64,000 nt of DNA from Salinigranum marinum (GTDB taxonomy: Archaea > Halobacteriota > Halobacteria > Halobacteriales > Haloferacaceae). Made by a program: the position numbers and the translations under genes. Under the pieces are notes generated by a model. It did not search any database. It was not told the DNA's origin and saw only the letters and a list, made by a program, of their open reading frames with translations. Below are positions 4,538 through 49,172 of this stretch, piece after piece. Where the stretch lies: NCBI RefSeq assembly GCF_024228675.1, contig NZ_CP100461.1:992001-1056000 (forward strand), in the 5' to 3' direction. Numbering within the stretch: position 1 is the first letter of the stretch; each line of letters begins with the position of its first letter.

Positions 4538-7500
4538 TCAGTCCCGGGCGTCCCGCGCGTCGTCGAACGTCGCGCTGAGCAGTTTCCGCTGTGCGATCCG
4601 GAGGTGCTGGTGGAGCGTCGGGGGCGAGATCCCGATCGCGTCGGCCACGTCCTCCCCGTTTTGCTCCCGGGGCCACTCGAAGAAGCCGCCGAAGTACGCC
4701 GCTTCGAGCGCCGACCGCTGCCGGTCGGTCAGTTCCTCCGCGAGCACGCGCTTCAGCGAGTCGACGCTGTCGGGTGTGCGGGTGACGTGACGCTTCGCGA
4801 CGAACTCGGCGCTGGGGTACGACTCCCGGACGACCTCGGAGATCCGTCGGGGCTCAACCCCCGGCGGCAGGTGGAACTCGATCCGGTAGTCGCCGTCCTC
4901 GATGACCGCCTGATCGACGTACCCCCCGTGGGAAGCAACTTCGGAGACGACCGGCGGCTCCGACAGCTGGACCTCGAACCGCACCGTCCCGGACCCCTCG
5001 GTCAGCCGCGTCACCGTCGTCCACGTCGGGACGGTGTCGGCCAGCGCGAGCACCGTCTCGAAGGCGTGCGCCGAGGTGCTCCCGTACAGGAGGTACTCGT
5101 CGTTCCCGGCGGGAACGACCTGGTCGAGCCTGATCGTCTCCGCCGTGGCCGGCGCGTCGAACACGTCGAAGCAGTCCCGGATCCGGTACTCGATCGACAA
5201 CACCTCGTCGCTCATGAGCGCGCGCTTGCGCTCGATGCTCGCGATGGCGTGTCCCATCACCTCGCCGAGCTGGCTGACGACCGCCCGCTCGTCGCCCTCG
5301 AAGCCGTTCGGCCGGCTAGCGTACACGTTCAGGACCCCGTATAGCGTCCCCTCGTGCGTGATCGGAATCGCCGCCGAGGACCGAAAGCCGTGCGCGCGGA
5401 CGTGCTCGCGCCACTGCTCGTAGTCAGGGTTCCCCCGGACGTCCTGGGTGACCTGCGTCTCGCCCGTCCGGAGCGCCCGCCCGGTCGCGCCCTGCGAGCG
5501 GGGATTGTCGGGATCGATCGAGACCGTGACGTCGTCGAGGTAGCCGTCGACGCCGGCCTCCGTCCGAACTCGAACGGTCTGGGAGTGTGAGTCCACGTCA
5601 CCGATCCACGCGAACAGATACGAGTCGGCGGCGGCCAGCCGCTCGCAGACGGCCCGTTCGATCTCCTCGCGGGTCGACCGGTCGATCACCGCCTCGACGA
5701 TCCCGTTGACGATCTCGTTGAGGTTGTTCACCGCGGCGAGCTGTTCGCGCTGGCGGCGCAGCTGCTGTTCGTTCCGCTGGCGATCGATCGCGTTGGCGAG
5801 GATGGTCGCGACCGACTGCACGAAGTCCACGTCGTGGTCTGCGAACTCCCTCACCCGTCGGTCGTGGACGCCGAGGACCCCCCACGGCTCGTCGACGGGA
5901 CCGACGACGGTCGTGACGCCGCTGCGGACGCCGTGGCTCGCGAGCAGGTCGGGTCCGCTGAACCGTGATTCGGTCGCGAGGTCGGTGACGACGACGGGGG
6001 CGTCCGACCCCAGCGTGTACGCCGCCTGCGACTCGGCTTCGACCGACGAGACCGTTTCCGAGCCGACGAGGCCGTCGTCCCAGCCGACGCCCTGGCGGAG
6101 CAGAAGCTCCTCTGCCTCCGCGTCGAGGTCGAGCATCTTGCAGTAGTCGGTGTCGAGGGTGTCGGCGACCAGCTCGGCCGCCTCGGCCATCAGCGCGTCG
6201 AGCCCCTCGCCTTCGAGCGCCCGGTGACCGAGTTCGGTGACGACCTCCTGCTGGCGGACCCGTCGTTCGAGTTCGCGCTCGCGTTCGACGCGCTCTGTGA
6301 CGTCCCGGACCACGCCACATCGGCCGCGGCCGTCGTCGAGGTCGATCGGCCCGAGACGGCTCTCGGCCGGGACGGATGTACCGTCTGCCCGATGGATGTC
6401 GAGTTCGACGTTCGCTACCTTCCGCTCACCGGCGTCGACCTCGGCGACGAGTGTGGCGGCCTTCGGCGTGATCTCGTCGCCGTGGACCGTGGTCGCGTGT
6501 GCGCCGAGTAACTCCGCGCGGCCGTAGCCGGTCAGCTCGCAGAAGGCGTCGTTGACCAGGATGAACCGCGCGTCGGCGTCGACCGCGTAGATGCCGTCGT
6601 CGACGGTCTCGACGATGGTGGCGTAGCGTTCGAGTTCCCGTTCGCGTCGCTTCCGCTCCGTCACGTCGCGGACGACACCCACGGTCCCCTGGAACGTCCC
6701 GTCGTCGCTCGGGAGCGGCGTGAACTTGCTTTCGGCCGGGAGCGCGTCGCCGTCGGCTCGCTGGATCTCCGCCTCGATCGTGGCGTGATCGCCGTCGCCG
6801 GCCACCATCGCCTCCGAGAACGCCGCGGCCCGCTCGGAGATCCCCTCGCCCACGACGAGCGAGCAGTGCGACCCGAGCAACTCCGTCCGGTCGTAGCCGG
6901 TCATCTCGGCGTACGCGTCGTTCATCTGGACGAACTCGTAATCGTCGTCGAGGACGTACACGCCGTCGTCGATCGTCTCGACGATCGTCTCGTAGCGCTC
7001 CAGTTCGGCCTCACGTTCCTTCCGTTCCGTGACGTCGCGGAAGTGGACCGACAGCCCCGTCTCAGACGGATACGCCCGGACGTCGAACCAGGCGTCGAGC
7101 GTCGAGTAGTACTCCTCGAACGTGACCGTCTCCCGGGCGTCGATCGCTCCCTCGACCCCACGGAACGTCGAGGCGATCGCGTCGGGGACCCCCTCACGGA
7201 TCGACCGCCCGACCAGTTCGTCGGCGGATCGACCGAGGAGCCGCTCGGCCCGTGTGTTGAGGTACGTGACGCGCCAGTCGTCGTCGAGCGCGAGCACGGC
7301 GTCGTCGATGCGCTCGAACACCTCGCCGAGTTCGTGCTGGAGGTCGTCTCGGTGGCGCTCCAGCCGCCGCTGTCGTGACTTCAGCGGCGTGACGTCGTAG
7401 AGGGTGACGACGACCTGCTCGACGCCGCCGTCGTCGCACGTCAGCGGGGCCGCCGTGACAGAGACCCACCGCTCGGTGTCCGGCCTGTCGACGCGAGCCT

Positions 7501-8401
7501 CCCAGTCGCCCACCCGCTCGCCGGTCTCAAAGACGCGTGCGACGGGGCGATCATCCCCGGGGATCGGCTCGCCGGCCTCGTCGACGAGCGGCCACTCGCT
7601 CGCGGGCACGCCGGCGGGGTGGACGCCGAGTAGGTCCCTCGCGCGCTCGTTCGTCTCCTCGACCGTCCCGTCCGCGTCGATCAGGACGACCCCGGCCGTG
7701 CTGGTCTCGAACAGCTTCCGGACGAGGTCCCGCTGTCGGCGGAGCCGCGTCTCGTACTCCCGGTGGTCGGTCATGTCCCGGGTCACTTTCACGTATCCCT
7801 GGAGCGTGCCGTCGTCGTCACGGACGGCTGTGAGCGTCGCGTTCGCCCAGAAGCGCGAGCCGTCCGCGCGCACGCGCCACCCCGTCAGCTCGACCGAGCC
7901 CTGCGCTGCCGCCTGTTCGAGGTTCCGCTCCGGGACGCCGTTTTCGGCCGCTGCCTCCGTGTAGAAGCTGCCGTAATGATCGCCGACGATCTCCTCGCGC
8001 CGGTAACCCTTGATCCGTCTCGCCCCGTCGTTCCAGGTGACGACGGCGCCGTCGGTGTCGAGCATGAAAATGGCGTACTCGTCGACGGCCCCGACGAGCG
8101 ACCGGAACTCCACCCCGCGTTCGTCTCCCGCCAGCGTCTCTCCGGGACCGTCCGTTCCGACGCCGTCTTCGGACTCGGTGCCGGACGTGCGCCACCAGAT
8201 CCGGCCACGCGCGCCGACTTTCTTCGTCGCCAGCGCGCCACGGTCGACGAGTTCGTCGAGTCGGTTGTACGCGGCACGGCGCGAACAGTCGGTGGCGTCC
8301 GCCACCTCGCTCGTGGTGAGGGGAGTGAAGCTGGACGAGGGCCGGTCGAAAGCCGAGAGCGTCTCGCTCAGTCGCTCCGACAGCGGGCCTGCAGAGGACA
8401 T
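4538..8401 (-). CDS. Bacterio-opsin-activator-like regulator with N-terminal HTH, five PAS, two GAF and HTH_10 domains
   Basis: 1287 residues from the ATG at 8401, about 27 bases downstream of a strong TATA box. Rough domain order: winged-helix HTH (25-75), five PAS domains in series (about 95-710, several closing with DVTERK-type linkers), two GAF domains (about 715-1040), a Bat-specific domain, and a C-terminal HTH_10 (LTDRQRSALEAAYFGGFFEW, then EDVADAIGISPPTLHQHLR). This is a one-component sensor and transcription factor; PAS and GAF domains may bind haem, flavin or small ligands, but none can be assigned. It is unusually long for the Bat family and has DNA-binding folds at both ends. The target genes are unknown. 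Confidence 0.9.
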   Translation of the reverse strand: MSSAGPLSERLSETLSAFDRPSSSFTPLTTSEVADATDCSRRAAYNRLDELVDRGALATKKVGARGRIWWRTSGTESEDGVGTDGPGETLAGDERGVEFRSLVGAVDEYAIFMLDTDGAVVTWNDGARRIKGYRREEIVGDHYGSFYTEAAAENGVPERNLEQAAAQGSVELTGWRVRADGSRFWANATLTAVRDDDGTLQGYVKVTRDMTDHREYETRLRRQRDLVRKLFETSTAGVVLIDADGTVEETNERARDLLGVHPAGVPASEWPLVDEAGEPIPGDDRPVARVFETGERVGDWEARVDRPDTERWVSVTAAPLTCDDGGVEQVVVTLYDVTPLKSRQRRLERHRDDLQHELGEVFERIDDAVLALDDDWRVTYLNTRAERLLGRSADELVGRSIREGVPDAIASTFRGVEGAIDARETVTFEEYYSTLDAWFDVRAYPSETGLSVHFRDVTERKEREAELERYETIVETIDDGVYVLDDDYEFVQMNDAYAEMTGYDRTELLGSHCSLVVGEGISERAAAFSEAMVAGDGDHATIEAEIQRADGDALPAESKFTPLPSDDGTFQGTVGVVRDVTERKRRERELERYATIVETVDDGIYAVDADARFILVNDAFCELTGYGRAELLGAHATTVHGDEITPKAATLVAEVDAGERKVANVELDIHRADGTSVPAESRLGPIDLDDGRGRCGVVRDVTERVERERELERRVRQQEVVTELGHRALEGEGLDALMAEAAELVADTLDTDYCKMLDLDAEAEELLLRQGVGWDDGLVGSETVSSVEAESQAAYTLGSDAPVVVTDLATESRFSGPDLLASHGVRSGVTTVVGPVDEPWGVLGVHDRRVREFADHDVDFVQSVATILANAIDRQRNEQQLRRQREQLAAVNNLNEIVNGIVEAVIDRSTREEIERAVCERLAAADSYLFAWIGDVDSHSQTVRVRTEAGVDGYLDDVTVSIDPDNPRSQGATGRALRTGETQVTQDVRGNPDYEQWREHVRAHGFRSSAAIPITHEGTLYGVLNVYASRPNGFEGDERAVVSQLGEVMGHAIASIERKRALMSDEVLSIEYRIRDCFDVFDAPATAETIRLDQVVPAGNDEYLLYGSTSAHAFETVLALADTVPTWTTVTRLTEGSGTVRFEVQLSEPPVVSEVASHGGYVDQAVIEDGDYRIEFHLPPGVEPRRISEVVRESYPSAEFVAKRHVTRTPDSVDSLKRVLAEELTDRQRSALEAAYFGGFFEWPREQNGEDVADAIGISPPTLHQHLRIAQRKLLSATFDDARDARD

Positions 8402-8424
8402 CCCGTCGGGGTACGATCTCCTGA

Positions 8425-8434
8425 TATAAATATA
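8425..8434 (-). promoter_or_regulatory. TATA box of the large HTH_10 regulator
   Basis: The run TATAAATATA (TATATTTATA on the coding strand) is centred about 28 bases before the ATG at 8401, the normal archaeal spacing for a leaderless transcript. It decides the start codon against a longer upstream open frame. Confidence 0.75.
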
Positions 8435-8681
8435 CCGTTGACGGAATTCGGTGTGGGGAGACCGAACTATGTCGGCCGAACTGGTGCCCTCTGCGACGGC
8501 CAGATCGGTCCGTCGCGGCGTCGTGTCGGCGTGGCCCGCTCCGACGAACGAACCGCTCTCTGATCGCGGATGTCCGGGGCCCTGTCCCGTCATCGGCCGC
8601 AGTAGAGCCTAATATGTTTGGCTCAACCGGTATGTGGCGGGGGTTCGTTCGTCTACTCGCGGTGGGGGGAAAACGAGGGAA

Positions 8682-8771
8682 AGACGAACTGGGGGGAACC
8701 CAAGAAGGGGGAGACGAACTGGGGAGAACCCAAGAAGGGGGAGACGAACTGGGGAGAACCCAAGAAGGGGG
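8682..8771. repeat. Three head-to-tail copies of a 30-bp unit
   Basis: Three adjacent 30-base units (8682-8711, 8712-8741, 8742-8771). Copies 2 and 3 are identical and copy 1 differs by one base. Each contains AGACGAACTGGGG and ends in AAGAAGGGGG. The unit length is a multiple of three, so every frame shows a decapeptide repeat. It is a young minisatellite-like expansion. Confidence 0.9.
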
Positions 8772-9050
8772 AGAGGCTGCGGACCGCGACGGGCGGTTCG
8801 CGCAGCCGAGTAGGTCACCCTGGCCAGCACTTGACGTCGTGTCGGCTCGTGGAACTCCGCGAGCCGCCTCGGACGATCGGTGATTCGGCCCTCGCCGGAA
8901 CGGTCCGGGACGCCGAGAGCGACGTTTACCGGATGACTCTCGGCGCCGCGGGCAGACGTTCACTACCCGAACCCAGCCTCGTCACACCGGCCTCCGTGGC
9001 GTTGACCCGGCGAAACGTCGCGTATTCACGGCCCCGCGTTGGATTAACGA

Positions 9051-9094
9051 GCGACAGTACTGCCCTTTACGAGCAGCAGTACCGCCCTTCACGA
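9051..9094. repeat. Two imperfect 22-bp direct repeats
   Basis: 9051-9072 and 9073-9094 match at 18 of 22 positions and share the core CAGTAC.GCCCTT.ACGA. A third, much more diverged copy may follow at 9095. They lie just downstream of the thiolase stop codon. Confidence 0.6.
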
Positions 9095-9142
9095 CCCACA
9101 GTTCTGCGGCCCTCCGGCGGAGCGGCGTCCCGTTCGGGAGGC

Positions 9143-10321
9143 TCACCGCCGTCGCCACAGCGACATGACCGCGCCGCCCCCGCCGACGCTCATCCCGACG
9201 AGGCCGTATTCGAGACCTTCCTCGACGAACTGGTACGCCAGCGACGTCGCCAACATCCCTCCGGACGCGCCGATCGGGTGCCCGAACGCGACTGCGCCGC
9301 CGCGTGGGTTCAGTTTCTCGCGTGGGATCCCGAGCCGCTCCATCACGTACACCGACTGGGCGGCGAACGCTTCGTTCACCCAGCAGGCGTCGACGTCGTC
9401 GATCCCGAGGTCGTTGGCCGCCAACAGCTTCTCGATCACGTCGCCGACGGCCTCGTTGAACTCGTCGGATGCCCGGTAGACGACGGCGTCGTCGACGAGG
9501 CGGAGCATCGGATCCAGCCCCGCGTCCGCCGCGGCGTCGGCGTCGGCAAGGAGCACGACCCCGGCACCGTCGGAGAGCTTCGAGGCGTTCGCGGGCGTGA
9601 TCGTCCCGTCGGATCGGAACGCCGGCGTGAGGCGTGCGAGGTCGTCCATAGTCGACTCCGGGCGTGGTCCCTCGTCCGGGGTGACCGTCCCCGCCCCGGT
9701 GTCGACGGGGACGAGTTCCGCGTCGAACCGCCCGTCGGCGGTCGCCGCCGCGGCCCGCCGGTGGCTCTCTAACGCGTAGCGGTCCTGTGCCTCCCGCGAG
9801 AGGTCGTACTCGTCGCCGAACCGATCGACGAGTCGCTCGGTGATCTCGCCCATGTGGACGTCCAGGGTGACGTCCCAGAGGGAATCGAGCAGCATCGAGT
9901 CCTTCAGCGTGACGTCGCCGTGTCGTTTTCCGCCCCGCATGCCGGGGAGGACCCACGGCGCGTTCGTCATCGACTCGAATCCTCCGGCGACCGCGAACGA
10001 CGCCCGTCCCGCGGCGATGCGATCGGCCGCGAGCGTGATCGCCCGCACGCCCGACCCCGAGGCCTCGTTGATCGTCGTCGCCGGCGTCGTCTCCGGGAGC
10101 CGCGACTCGACGACCACCTGTCGGCCCGGTACCTGACCGATCCCCGCCTGGATGGCGTTGCCGAGAACCGCGTGGTCGACCCGGTTCGGAGCGAGGTCGA
10201 TCCGATCGAGCAGTCCGTCGAGGGCGACGCGCCCGAGTTCGACGGGGCCGACGCCGGCCAGCGAGCCGAGGAGCGTCCCGTGGGGAGTCCGCGCGCCGTC
10301 GACGAGGACGACTTCGTTCAT
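9143..10321 (-). CDS. Thiolase-family protein (acetyl-CoA acetyltransferase-like) with both catalytic cysteines replaced by serine
   Basis: 392 residues from the ATG at 10321 (MNEVVLVDGARTP). The full thiolase fold is evident: NEAFAAQ, RGGAVAFGHPIGASG with the conserved His, and a C-terminal glycine-rich VGGGGAV. In the position of the acyl-accepting Cys (usually N-x-x-C-G-S-G) the sequence reads NEASGSG, giving Ser88. The C-terminal catalytic Cys (usually C-I/V-GGG) is Ser378. The family condenses or cleaves acyl-CoA thioesters in beta-oxidation or polyhydroxyalkanoate synthesis. No OB-fold (DUF35) partner gene is adjacent. It could be a Ser-dependent thiolase or a binding protein without thiolase activity. 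Confidence 0.9.
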   Translation of the reverse strand: MNEVVLVDGARTPHGTLLGSLAGVGPVELGRVALDGLLDRIDLAPNRVDHAVLGNAIQAGIGQVPGRQVVVESRLPETTPATTINEASGSGVRAITLAADRIAAGRASFAVAGGFESMTNAPWVLPGMRGGKRHGDVTLKDSMLLDSLWDVTLDVHMGEITERLVDRFGDEYDLSREAQDRYALESHRRAAAATADGRFDAELVPVDTGAGTVTPDEGPRPESTMDDLARLTPAFRSDGTITPANASKLSDGAGVVLLADADAAADAGLDPMLRLVDDAVVYRASDEFNEAVGDVIEKLLAANDLGIDDVDACWVNEAFAAQSVYVMERLGIPREKLNPRGGAVAFGHPIGASGGMLATSLAYQFVEEGLEYGLVGMSVGGGGAVMSLWRRR

Positions 10322-10475: not shown

Positions 10476-11448
10476 TCACTCGTCAGTGTCGTCAGCGTCC
10501 GGTTCGAGCGGTATTCGATCCAGTCCGACCGTGTCGTAGTCTTGTTCGCTCGAGAGAACGACGTCATCGGGCGTCCGGAGTGGTGGTGCGATCATCGGGA
10601 GCAGCCCTTGCTCCTCGTAGTCGGTCCTGTCGAGTGTCGTACAGTGGACACACGTCTCAGCGCGGATCTGCGACTTATCCGTCTGTGCTGCTTCGATGGC
10701 TTCAGCGGCCGCCCAGCACGACGTATGGATGACGTAATATTTGATCTCGACTCCCTGCGCCAACCGAACGGCGTCGTCGGCTACCTTCGCCTCGGCATGG
10801 GGAGGGCGCGAGTCAAGGTAGTCGGTCGGCACACCCCTCCCCTCAGTGCGCATCCGTCTCCCGTGTCGAGCACACGCTGTCGTCCTCCGTGTGGGGGACA
10901 GCGAGCCCGTCAGCCGCTTCGATACCTTCGAGGGCTCGTTCTATGAACCCGTTTCGGAGCCTGAAGTCGTAGGTGGTGAAGATCTTGAACGAGACAGTCC
11001 CGCTCTCCACCAGATCCGCGATTTCGTCTAGGACCGTTGGGGTCCTCCCCGGTAATCGTCCCGTGGAAACCGAAATCGACGAGCGAGGACTCTCCAGCGG
11101 ACCGCTGGCGCTCGACCGCCTCGTGCAGCGTCCTGTCACTCGTACACAGTGAGTCCACTCCGTCCCGTCCCTGCCAGGCGAAGGTTAGGAGAGTCGTCGG
11201 GCCACCCAACGCCGCGGCTTGACCTCCTGTTCGAGAGGAGTCGATCAACCATGGCCCCTCGAGATGGACGTGAGGGTCGACGACTCCCGGGAGAACTAGC
11301 CGATCGGACACGTCGACTGTAGCCGCGCTTTCGATGTCGGTACCGTTTTTTCACGATCCCTGCGATCCGGCCCCCTCTCAACGAGGAGATCGGCAGCAAT
11401 CGTACCGTCAGCTGTGACGAGTGTCCCGTCTTTGACGACGAGGTCCAT
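10476..11448 (-). pseudogene. Hydantoinase/dihydropyrimidinase-like amidohydrolase, frameshifted and truncated
   Basis: Four consecutive pieces in changing frames read like one cyclic amidohydrolase. They are the N-terminal MDLVVKDGTLVTADGTIAAD from 11448; LVLPGVVDPHVHLEGPW with the metal-binding HVH; TVSFKIFTTYDF and VPHTED (metal-binding His); and AETCVHCTTLD with MIAPPLRTPDDV. Frame changes fall near 11310-11370, 11035 and 10850. The C-terminal quarter of the family is absent: translation stops at 10476, at the island edge. The intact enzyme would hydrolyse cyclic amides such as hydantoins or dihydropyrimidines. It is the last member of the transporter/CoA-transferase cluster and is almost certainly inactive. 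Confidence 0.85.
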
Positions 11449-11812: not shown

Positions 11813-13123
11813 TCACAGTACGCCCGCCTCTCGGAGTCTCTCGATCTCTCCCTCGTCGTAGCCGAGTGCCTCGAGGACGGGAGTGGTGTCCTCACCAAGC
11901 GATGGCGGGTCCGTTGACTCGACCCGGTCGAAGCCCGTCGAGCGCGCGGGGAACCGTGGCGTCCGGATCCGGCCGCCCTCACCTTCGGTAGCATTGACTT
12001 CAGCGAGGGCCTCCGTCACCTCGAGATGCGGGTCGTCTCGGACGTCGCCCATATCGTTCACCGGGGCGACCGGAACGCCCCCGTCCTGAAGTCGCTCGAC
12101 GAGCTCGTCTCTCGTGTACTGTTTGCAGGTCGCCTCCACGATGCCGTGGAGTTCCGTGCGGTTTTTCAAGCGGTTCTTGAGTTCGGCAAACCGTTCGTCG
12201 TCACCGATGTCGAGGTCGAGAACGTCACAGAACTGCCGCCACTGCCGGTCGGAGGACGGTCCGATGAACACCCACTCGTCGTCGGCAGACTGAAACACGT
12301 CGTACGGCGCCCAACCGGGGTGACTCGCGCCCATCGGATCGGGGATGTCGTCGTACGCCTGTGTGTACGCGAGCCAGTATCCCATGAGTGCGACCGTGCT
12401 CTCGAACAGCGGGACAGTGAGGTGCTGGCCGGTCCCCGTCTCCTGGCGCTGACGCATGGCACCGAGGACTGTCACGGCGGCGTACAACGACGCCGCCATG
12501 TCCGAAAGGCTCGTGCCTGACCGGACTGGCGGCTGACCGGGATGGCCAGTCACGCTCATGACCCCCGAGAGCGCTTCGGCGACCGGGTCGAGCGCTGGGA
12601 AGCGCTCGTATGGGCCCTGGTTGAACCCCTTGATCGAGCAGTACACTAGTTCCTCGTTGGCGGTCTTGAGGTCGTCGTAGCCGACGCCGAGGCGGTCGGT
12701 CGTCCCGGCGGCGAAGTTTTCGACCAACACATCTGCGTTCGCGACGAGTTCCCTGAAGATGGCTTGGCCATCGTCAGACTTCAGGTCGAGCGTGACACTG
12801 AGTTTGTTCCGATTTACGTAGTTGAACGAACTGTTCCCGATCGGGCTGGAGTCGCGGATGGCGTCGCCTCCGCCCGGTGACTCGACCTTGATGACTTCCG
12901 CGCCGAGATCGGCGAGGATCATCGAGCAGAACGGGCCAGCGATGATGTGCCCGAGTTCAAGGACCGTCACGTCCGATAGTGGCCGCCCCTCGCCGCCCGG
13001 AAGCATCGATGGCGTGACGCGCCCACCGTCGGTCATAACCGACGTCACGTTCTCGGGTCCGTCTTCTCTGCCTCGCGCTTCGGAGCTCGTTCGCGCTCCG
13101 TGTGTCGGTGAATCGTGTGTCAT
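11813..13123 (-). CDS. Class III CoA-transferase (CaiB/BaiF family)
   Basis: 436 residues. These enzymes move CoA between carboxylic acids through an aspartyl-CoA mixed anhydride. After a poorly conserved leader of about 45 residues come VLELGHIIAGPFCSMILADL and GAEVIKVESPGGGD, NRNKLSVTLDLKS, and RSGTSLSDMAASLYAA with the expected catalytic Asp. VPVAPVNDMGDVRDDPH marks the C-terminal domain. The length is typical. It starts 26 bases after the ABC ATPase stop, so it probably belongs to that operon and activates the imported acid, or an acid derived from it, for catabolism. Donor and acceptor are unknown. Confidence 0.92.
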   Translation of the reverse strand: MTHDSPTHGARTSSEARGREDGPENVTSVMTDGGRVTPSMLPGGEGRPLSDVTVLELGHIIAGPFCSMILADLGAEVIKVESPGGGDAIRDSSPIGNSSFNYVNRNKLSVTLDLKSDDGQAIFRELVANADVLVENFAAGTTDRLGVGYDDLKTANEELVYCSIKGFNQGPYERFPALDPVAEALSGVMSVTGHPGQPPVRSGTSLSDMAASLYAAVTVLGAMRQRQETGTGQHLTVPLFESTVALMGYWLAYTQAYDDIPDPMGASHPGWAPYDVFQSADDEWVFIGPSSDRQWRQFCDVLDLDIGDDERFAELKNRLKNRTELHGIVEATCKQYTRDELVERLQDGGVPVAPVNDMGDVRDDPHLEVTEALAEVNATEGEGGRIRTPRFPARSTGFDRVESTDPPSLGEDTTPVLEALGYDEGEIERLREAGVL

Positions 13124-47405: not shown

Positions 47406-49172
47406 TTACCCACCGAAGCGTGACACGATCCGATGGGTGGCGGTCCGAGCGTCCTCCGACCACCGGGTCAGTGTTCCCTGACTCCGTGTCCAATCGACGT
47501 TCGCCTCGCGTTTCGGCGAGCGCGGGTCGGGAGTCGGTGGAACGACTCCGGTACCGCCGATGGCGACGACGCCGTTACAGTGTGAGATGGTGCGCACTCC
47601 ACCTTCGATCGGTGACTCCTCGCCGGGGGACAGGCTGTAACACGTCTCCTCCTCGAACGTCTCCTCAGACAGTTCGGTTATTCGGTTCACCGTGATGGCG
47701 CTTCCAGGAGACGCATAGTCCCGCGCGGGCCTGTACACCTGCCCTGCTTCGATCCACGGCTTCCCCGCGGGCCGCGAACCCCGGACGTCGGTCTTGACCG
47801 GGTTGTTCTCGTGTGGCCGCCACGCTCCGAACAGCGTCTCCGCCGACCAGACGTACAGGTTCGTGTCCGGGAGCGCGTTCCGTTTCGTGAAGAACAGCCA
47901 CCATCTGTCGGCGTGTCTGAACAGCGTGGGGGCGACTCCCCGTGTGCCCGGAACCAGCGTCTTCACGAACTCCCACTGGCCGGGTTCCACCGCTTCGTAC
48001 AGGTGGATCCCGTCTCGGCCACGCGTCTCGGAGACGACGAAGTGCCTCCCGTCAACTTGGAGGACGTACGGGTAGGAAACGTCACCCTCGCCCTCGAAGG
48101 CGTGGTGGACGTCCGAGAGAATCGCTCCGTCCTCGTATTTGCAGTACGATATCCTCCCGCCGGCATCCGGGTGAGTGTAGTCCGTGAAGAAGACGACGAC
48201 GTCGTCGCCGATCTCGGTCACGAACGGATCCCCCACGGATCCGTCCCCAGACCGAGCGGGGAACCACTGGAGGTCTGCTAGCCCACGTTCCCCGATCGTC
48301 TCCACCTCCGTGTCGGTCAGTCCGATCGTCCGACGCTCGTTCGTCTTGAACCGGGATCGTAGGTACCACCCCGCCCGCTTCAGGTGGTATCCGAGCAACT
48401 GATGCGGGTTCGGAGCCGTGTAGATCGGTGCGTCGGTGTTCGATTGCTCCCCGCCAGTGGCGTCCACGTTCCCGTTCAGGATGTCGGTCGCTACCTGCGC
48501 AGGCCAGCCGGCGGTCGCGTACAACAGTTTGTTCAGGTTCTGCTCTCTCGACTGCGGTATCGTCTTGAAACGACCGCGTTTCAGGACGACGCCACCGTCG
48601 AGTTCGTCCGTCAACCGCTGCAGGATCGCCCCGGTGACGGGGTCGTCGTTGTATATCTCCCAGAAGCCGGCCGGACTCCCCCGGTATCTCCGTTCGTCAC
48701 CGTGGTGAAACGACCACACCCCGTACGTGGGGACCGTCAGGATCCGACCTCGTATGATCCCGAACGAGAACCGCAAGACGAAATCCAAGTCGTACCGTTC
48801 GATGGACTCGATGTCGTCCGGCGGGAAGTACTCCGAGAAGCCCTCCCGCTCCACCGTACAGTGGACCCTGTCCACGCCGTCGAGGAGCCGCGTCAGATCG
48901 ACTTTCCGTCTGGCCGGCGGACGACTGGTCAGGTAGTCCTGGTGGATCTGCCAGACGGCTTTCGAGACCGCAGTCGGTGCTCCGGAACGAGACACCGCGT
49001 CCAGAAACCGCGAGACGTTCCCTCTCGGATCCCGGCCGTCGACGATCAAGAGGCGGAGGTTGACGCCTTCCATCTCCAACAGCCGACCGATGCACTTCGC
49101 TTGCCAGTCCTGAAAGACGTCCCCGCCGCACATGATCCCGAAGTCGAGCGGTGAATCCGAGCGTTCTGCCAT
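47406..49172 (-). CDS. Formyltransferase-like domain fused to a five-bladed beta-propeller domain
   Basis: 588 residues. The N-terminal half (1-240) reads like a methionyl-tRNA/sugar formyltransferase: FGIIRGRILTVPTYGVWSFH with HHGDERRYRGSPAGFWEIYN and LDGGVVLKRGRF. The C-terminal half (about 270-540) is a GH43/GINT1-type propeller, with repeated aromatic blades such as DVVVFFTDYTHPDAGG, VSYPYVLQVDGRHFVVSETR and RWWLFFTKRNALPDTNLYVW. Such fusions are known in surface-polysaccharide loci. It is alone here, AT-richer than its neighbours and preceded by AT-rich DNA, suggesting acquisition. N-formylation of an amino sugar is a guess. Confidence 0.75.
   Translation of the reverse strand: MAERSDSPLDFGIMCGGDVFQDWQAKCIGRLLEMEGVNLRLLIVDGRDPRGNVSRFLDAVSRSGAPTAVSKAVWQIHQDYLTSRPPARRKVDLTRLLDGVDRVHCTVEREGFSEYFPPDDIESIERYDLDFVLRFSFGIIRGRILTVPTYGVWSFHHGDERRYRGSPAGFWEIYNDDPVTGAILQRLTDELDGGVVLKRGRFKTIPQSREQNLNKLLYATAGWPAQVATDILNGNVDATGGEQSNTDAPIYTAPNPHQLLGYHLKRAGWYLRSRFKTNERRTIGLTDTEVETIGERGLADLQWFPARSGDGSVGDPFVTEIGDDVVVFFTDYTHPDAGGRISYCKYEDGAILSDVHHAFEGEGDVSYPYVLQVDGRHFVVSETRGRDGIHLYEAVEPGQWEFVKTLVPGTRGVAPTLFRHADRWWLFFTKRNALPDTNLYVWSAETLFGAWRPHENNPVKTDVRGSRPAGKPWIEAGQVYRPARDYASPGSAITVNRITELSEETFEEETCYSLSPGEESPIEGGVRTISHCNGVVAIGGTGVVPPTPDPRSPKREANVDWTRSQGTLTRWSEDARTATHRIVSRFGG

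Follow-up and report, generated by a model that had tools for sequence, protein, structure and literature searches.

Serine in place of both catalytic cysteines in a clade of haloarchaeal single-chain thiolase homologues

Background

Thiolases make or break carbon-carbon bonds in acyl-CoA substrates, and their acylated cysteine is regarded as the feature that defines them. A gene of Salinigranum marinum raises the question of what a thiolase-fold protein does when both of its reactive cysteines are serines. The gene lies in a 64,000-nucleotide stretch of the genome that we call the window. A first-pass annotation had read its product as an ordinary single-chain thiolase with serine at both catalytic cysteine positions, with the active-site histidine and the NEAF loop kept and with no OB-fold partner gene beside it, and had pointed to haloarchaeal two-subunit ketothiolases with a Ser-His-His site. 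Automatic annotation places such proteins in the thiolase family and in beta-oxidation; if this is wrong, as it may be, models of haloarchaeal metabolism and of PHA production would be misled. Here, we ask whether the double replacement is real and shared, where it came from, and which chemistry it might serve.

The gene and its protein

The gene occupies 9143..10321 on the minus strand (the strand is a correction to the first-pass annotation), as an uninterrupted frame running from M1 to R392 plus stop, and matches its own genome at 100 % identity (G000:C1:1001146-1002321). Translation could also begin at a GTG 21 bases further upstream (10342), but M1 at 10321 fits the alignment start of most orthologues. 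Pfam Thiolase_N (253 bits) and Thiolase_C (86 bits) span the full length of the protein, and its TIGR01930 score of 349 bits lies above the cut-off of 240.6 bits. In the HMMER alignment, S88 and S378 fall in the catalytic cysteine columns of solved thiolases. Ser88 (codon 10058..10060, minus strand), at the nucleophile position, stands in the motif NEASGSG (pattern match 10041-10069), and Ser378 (codon 9188..9190, minus strand), at the C-terminal proton-transfer position, in GMSVGGGG. Retained are His348 (codon 9278..9280, minus strand) within GHPIGASG (347-354), which is invariant in the alignment, the NEAF loop (316-319; 9365..9376, minus strand), whose Asn316 occupies the oxyanion-hole position, and the motifs HMG (156-158) and NAS (245-247). 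The sole cysteine, C313, is not conserved in the clade, and no cysteine is invariant across the aligned orthologues, so that no other cysteine takes over the active site.

The same fold, length and domain order are found in the single-chain thiolases of the type of PhaA, ACAT and bacterial BktB (TIGR01930), to which the protein is ~37-44 % identical and with which it shares the HMG, NAS, NEAF and GHPIGASG motifs, Asn316 and His348. It differs from them in the two Cys-to-Ser exchanges, in Glu for Lys or Arg at position 86, in the replacement of the VMG/Pro loop, and in Gly for Ala355. Judged by sequence, the protein and its orthologues are thus thiolase homologues, a variant of the single-chain type; since the cysteines that define thiolases are missing from them, we file them as a Ser/Ser variant clade and not as thiolases proper.

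Distribution and conservation of the Ser/Ser clade

Orthologues (matches above 560 bits) were found in 76 of the 392 sampled Halobacteriales genomes (~19 %). They are 54-85 % identical and come from the genus of the window, from its family and from outside that family within the order, with carriers such as Haloferax mediterranei (WP_004061064.1), Haladaptatus salinisoli, Halalkalicoccus sp. FCH27, Haloterrigena turkmenica, Natronorubrum bangense, Natrinema gelatinilyticum and Halosimplex carlsbadense. Below these follow one partial copy at 407 bits and then matches of at most 347 bits, of which those examined are Cys thiolases. The picture of an isolated oddity given by the first-pass annotation was therefore right about the two serines and incomplete in treating them as a single case.

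We compared 59 complete orthologues column by column with 42 single-chain Cys relatives. Both sites are serine in 59/59 of the former and cysteine in 42/42 of the latter. The serine codons vary (TCG, TCC, TCT or TCA at position 88; AGC, AGT or TCG at position 378), pairwise dN/dS is about 0.1-0.3, and the HMG, NAS, NEAF and GHPIG motifs are kept in nearly all orthologues, two of which have TAS for NAS. The fixed serines, the synonymous variation of their codons and the low dN/dS rule out a sequencing error at both codons as well as a decaying gene; with an open frame and nothing in the window copy that speaks for decay, the chance of either is vanishingly small, and the one damaged copy seen belongs to a relative.

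In that relative (G657:C1, locus L200, ~7001-9235 in locus coordinates), the gene is split: an N-terminal fragment of 252 aa is followed after about 1 kb by a C-terminal one, and the gap between them holds two minus-strand ORFs, possibly an insertion element.

No one-Cys intermediate occurred among the 79 non-haloarchaeal relatives retrieved or the 42 Cys relatives compared, and the sole protein of intermediate score (G572, locus L188) carries both cysteines.

Fold, phylogeny and a remodelled pocket

The AlphaFold model, built with 50 aligned sequences, has a mean pLDDT of 93.1, and the solved structures nearest to it, at TM 0.94-0.95, are those of single-chain thiolases, Ralstonia PhaA among them. 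In a quick-search tree of 79 proteins, in which support is SH-aLRT only, a branch with SH-aLRT 100 divides the Ser clade from all other proteins, and the clade groups with haloarchaeal single-chain Cys thiolases (SH-aLRT 96), in agreement with the single-chain assignment made earlier.

The two serines are part of a larger set of residues that set the clade apart from its relatives and show little or no variation within it: H14, L53, E86, A87, S88, G254, D277, Y282, R283, V292, D294, G355, G376, M377, S378 and G383. Several of these adjoin the two former cysteines, follow GHPIGASG, or sit in the segment of the VMG-type substrate loop, which is absent from the clade together with its following Pro. 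In its place, residues 282-294 (9440..9478, minus strand) carry a clade-specific Y-R-x(8)-V-x-D, with Y282 in 59/59 orthologues and V292 in 58/59, where Pro is found in 42/42 relatives. Glu86 (codon 10064..10066, minus strand) is invariant in the clade, the position being Lys or Arg in 41 of the 42 Cys thiolases. The best explanation is that both cysteines were replaced once, in the common ancestor of the clade, along with the other pocket residues. Such coordinated changes point to an altered reaction or substrate and not to mere loss, and Y282, R283, D294 and E86 in particular argue for a changed substrate.

Another reading is that the clade consists of non-catalytic, regulatory, binding or structural proteins. 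Inactive members of the fold are known, for instance the thiolase-like protein MsTLP1, which has no activity and has lost all catalytic residues (PMC3406046), and the Ser/Ser protein likewise lacks the catalytic cysteines. However, it has lost only its thiols, the rest of the active site being essentially invariant in the 59 sequences, and we consider a purely non-catalytic role improbable.

Relation to the two-subunit Ser-type ketothiolases

According to the accounts that reviews give of Hou et al. 2013 (PMC7137286, PMC9049629), BktB and PhaA of Hfx. mediterranei are two-subunit enzymes with a Ser-His-His site and an essential OB-fold subunit. The mention of such enzymes in the first-pass annotation is borne out: the genome to which the window belongs encodes an alpha subunit of this SCP2 type (L217, 1492-3021 in locus coordinates) with the motifs DQTSSSGG, HDMF and GHPLGASG and an OB partner directly downstream, and its homologue in Hfx. 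mediterranei (L230), 73 % identical, also has a serine nucleophile and a partner gene directly downstream.

As a separate observation, the N-terminal region of the OB-fold partner of L217 appears to be without the zinc-ribbon cysteines found in the partner of L230.

The Ser/Ser protein resembles BktB and PhaA in its haloarchaeal origin and in the serine at the nucleophile position. These, however, have Thiolase_C_1, HDxF and an obligate OB-fold partner, whereas the Ser/Ser protein has Thiolase_C and NEAF and is single-chain; the third catalytic position is filled by serine for Cys378 in the latter, while SCP2-type enzymes use the HDxF motif. Tree and domains thus rule out a common lineage with the BktB/PhaA alpha subunits; in the tree, the branch that separates the Ser clade from the five SCP2-type thiolases of this genome is about 4 changes per site long. 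Given this distance from the Ser-His-His enzymes, Cys-to-Ser replacement has arisen at least twice in haloarchaea, a second and separate origin that the original comparison, although correct in treating the two types as distinct, had missed along with the further pocket changes. No OB-fold gene adjoins the Ser/Ser gene. Furthermore, the search for a DUF35 partner elsewhere that had been proposed returned five PF01796 genes, and each of them has as its neighbour a different SCP2-type thiolase gene, of which the genome also holds five, so that none is left over and a hidden partner can be dismissed.

Across many haloarchaeal families, the clade does without either thiol in a scaffold of the ordinary single-chain kind, and it came to do so separately from the two-subunit Ser-type enzymes already known. 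Two questions thereby become testable: is Ser-His chemistry by itself enough for a thiolase, and what makes haloarchaea exchange cysteine for serine repeatedly?

Possible chemistry of a thiol-free active site

Both reactive cysteines being always serine, either the chemistry is altered or the reaction is a different one. We tentatively favour an active serine-based acyl-CoA enzyme that is most likely still thiolase-like, while rating this reading slightly below even. Ser88, activated by His348, would attack the carbonyl of a 3-ketoacyl-CoA to form an O-acyl enzyme, the oxyanions would be held by Asn316 and by amides of the backbone, and Ser378 together with His348 might relay the alpha-carbon proton. 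The acyl group would then pass to CoA, which would make the protein a thiol-free, degradative thiolase, presumably acting on a non-standard, possibly carboxylated, substrate.

Invariant serines under purifying constraint, retained motifs, a confidently modelled thiolase fold and a well-supported position among single-chain thiolases all favour this thiolase-like enzyme, with the clade-specific pocket residues arguing for its changed substrate. In addition, some loci of the clade contain genes for acyl-CoA dehydrogenase, hydratase, CoA-transferase and CoA ligase, and a CoA-transferase gene lies upstream in the window. That serine can serve in a haloarchaeal ketothiolase is indicated by the alpha subunits of BktB and PhaA, whose function is supported by knockout phenotypes as summarised in PMC7137286 and PMC6631277.

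Several points weigh against it. Serine is a poor base, and at the position of the second cysteine it shuttles protons badly. Transfer of the acyl group to CoA has to turn a serine ester into a thioester again, which is energetically uphill. The sequences of the solved thiolases 4o9c and 8jg2 carry serine at the nucleophile in the HMMER alignment; we take both to be trapping mutants, which suggests that serine slows the normal reaction. In the steroid aldolase Sal, Cys to Ser at the proton-transfer position abolished activity (PMC12329534). The chemistry of serine and this loss in Sal weaken the reading as a plain thiolase. Furthermore, the reviews state that a phaA/bktB double knockout of Hfx. 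mediterranei makes no PHA (PMC6631277), despite the Ser/Ser orthologue encoded there, and that of eight candidates only PhaA and BktB support PHA synthesis (PMC6631277); by these accounts, the orthologue does not replace them.

The uphill step would be avoided if the acyl group were passed from a Ser88-His348 dyad to water or to another acceptor instead of CoA, as in a serine-based acyl-CoA hydrolase or O-acyltransferase. A serine nucleophile with a conserved histidine and the general chemistry of ester hydrolysis are consistent with this. Yet we found no precedent for it in the thiolase fold, and the enolate-handling Asn316 and the Ser378 loop are conserved, with no obvious role in hydrolysis, so that we regard such an activity as unlikely, if a shade less so than a non-catalytic role.

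Gene neighbourhood and a possible C-C lyase

Upstream of the Ser/Ser gene, on the same strand, lie an ABC transporter and a class III CoA-transferase gene (11813..13123, minus strand), a possible functional neighbour whose product has mesaconate and glutarate CoA-transferases as nearest models, both below cut-off, and is 38-41 % identical to the CoA-transferases encoded close to other members of the clade. The neighbours differ from one clade member to another, and acidity-filtered clustering of neighbouring ORFs returned no gene conserved clade-wide.

Several Natrialbaceae, in contrast, have a same-strand group in which the Ser/Ser gene is accompanied by genes for an acyl-CoA dehydrogenase, a MaoC hydratase, a class III CoA-transferase and MmgE/PrpD, sometimes with an acyl-CoA ligase, and then by a dihydroorotate dehydrogenase gene (plasmid loci L156, 5570-12425, L158, L227 and L228). 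In the Natronorubrum loci, the MaoC protein is nearest to the NCBIfam model RipB/Ich (itaconyl-CoA hydratase; 177 bits, below the cut-off of 340), and the nearest models of the CoA-transferase are dicarboxylate transferases. The bacterial itaconate/methylsuccinate cluster consists of the same four families plus citramalyl-CoA lyase (PMC12290011), and neither a lyase nor a 3-hydroxyacyl-CoA dehydrogenase is annotated in the Natrialbaceae stretches, those of Natronorubrum included. The missing dehydrogenase speaks against a thiolase, and the resemblance of the group to the bacterial cluster minus its lyase leads to the main rival, namely a thiolase-fold C-C lyase that would cleave a 3-hydroxyacyl-CoA, for instance a citramalyl-CoA-like C5 dicarboxylyl-CoA, in a retro-aldol type reaction without covalent catalysis and thus without need of either thiol. 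The Natrialbaceae protein would then hold the place of citramalyl-CoA lyase.

Precedent exists in thiolase-fold aldolases that work without the nucleophile (Ltp2, Sal; PMC12329534); these steroid aldolases and SLP have lost the nucleophilic cysteine, as has the Ser/Ser protein, in which a carboxylate could be bound by Y282, which is invariant, and by R283, which is nearly so. However, Ltp2 and Sal have DUF35 partners and the motifs YDHF/YDCY, where the Ser/Ser protein has NEAF at that loop and no partner; the nucleophile position of Sal is Gly, not Ser (PMC12329534), and strict serine at both sites of the clade suggests that the hydroxyls matter. Moreover, the gene group is conserved only in some Natrialbaceae loci, with different neighbours elsewhere, and at genome level an Ich-like hydratase is not associated with the Ser/Ser gene (30/76 genomes with the gene vs 101/316 without, Fisher p 0.22). 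We therefore see the lyase as possible but rather doubtful, and its fuller form, a single-chain thiol-free enzyme that cleaves 3-hydroxy(dicarboxylyl)-CoA and replaces a citramalyl-CoA-type lyase in a haloarchaeal C5-dicarboxylate pathway, as more doubtful still. If true, a thiol-free C-C lyase would be new chemistry for class-I-like thiolases.

Of the remaining surroundings in the window, the interval between the Ser/Ser and CoA-transferase genes holds amidohydrolase gene fragments (10476..11311, minus strand), apparently a relic or pseudogene, which gave no Pfam match and are, over part of one fragment, ~50 % identical to haloarchaeal plasmid amidohydrolases. Directly downstream of the Ser/Ser gene lies a large PAS/GAF/Bat/HTH_10 regulator gene (4538-8593, minus strand). 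In a genome of the same genus (L190), the Ser/Ser gene is followed by a large ORF that falls into one cluster with this regulator; large ORFs follow the gene in L191 and L192 as well. Further away, at 47406-49172 on the minus strand, a protein of 588 residues matches GINT1_N (E 1.3e-23), the N-terminal domain of glucosamine inositolphosphorylceramide transferase 1, which is unexpected in an archaeon.
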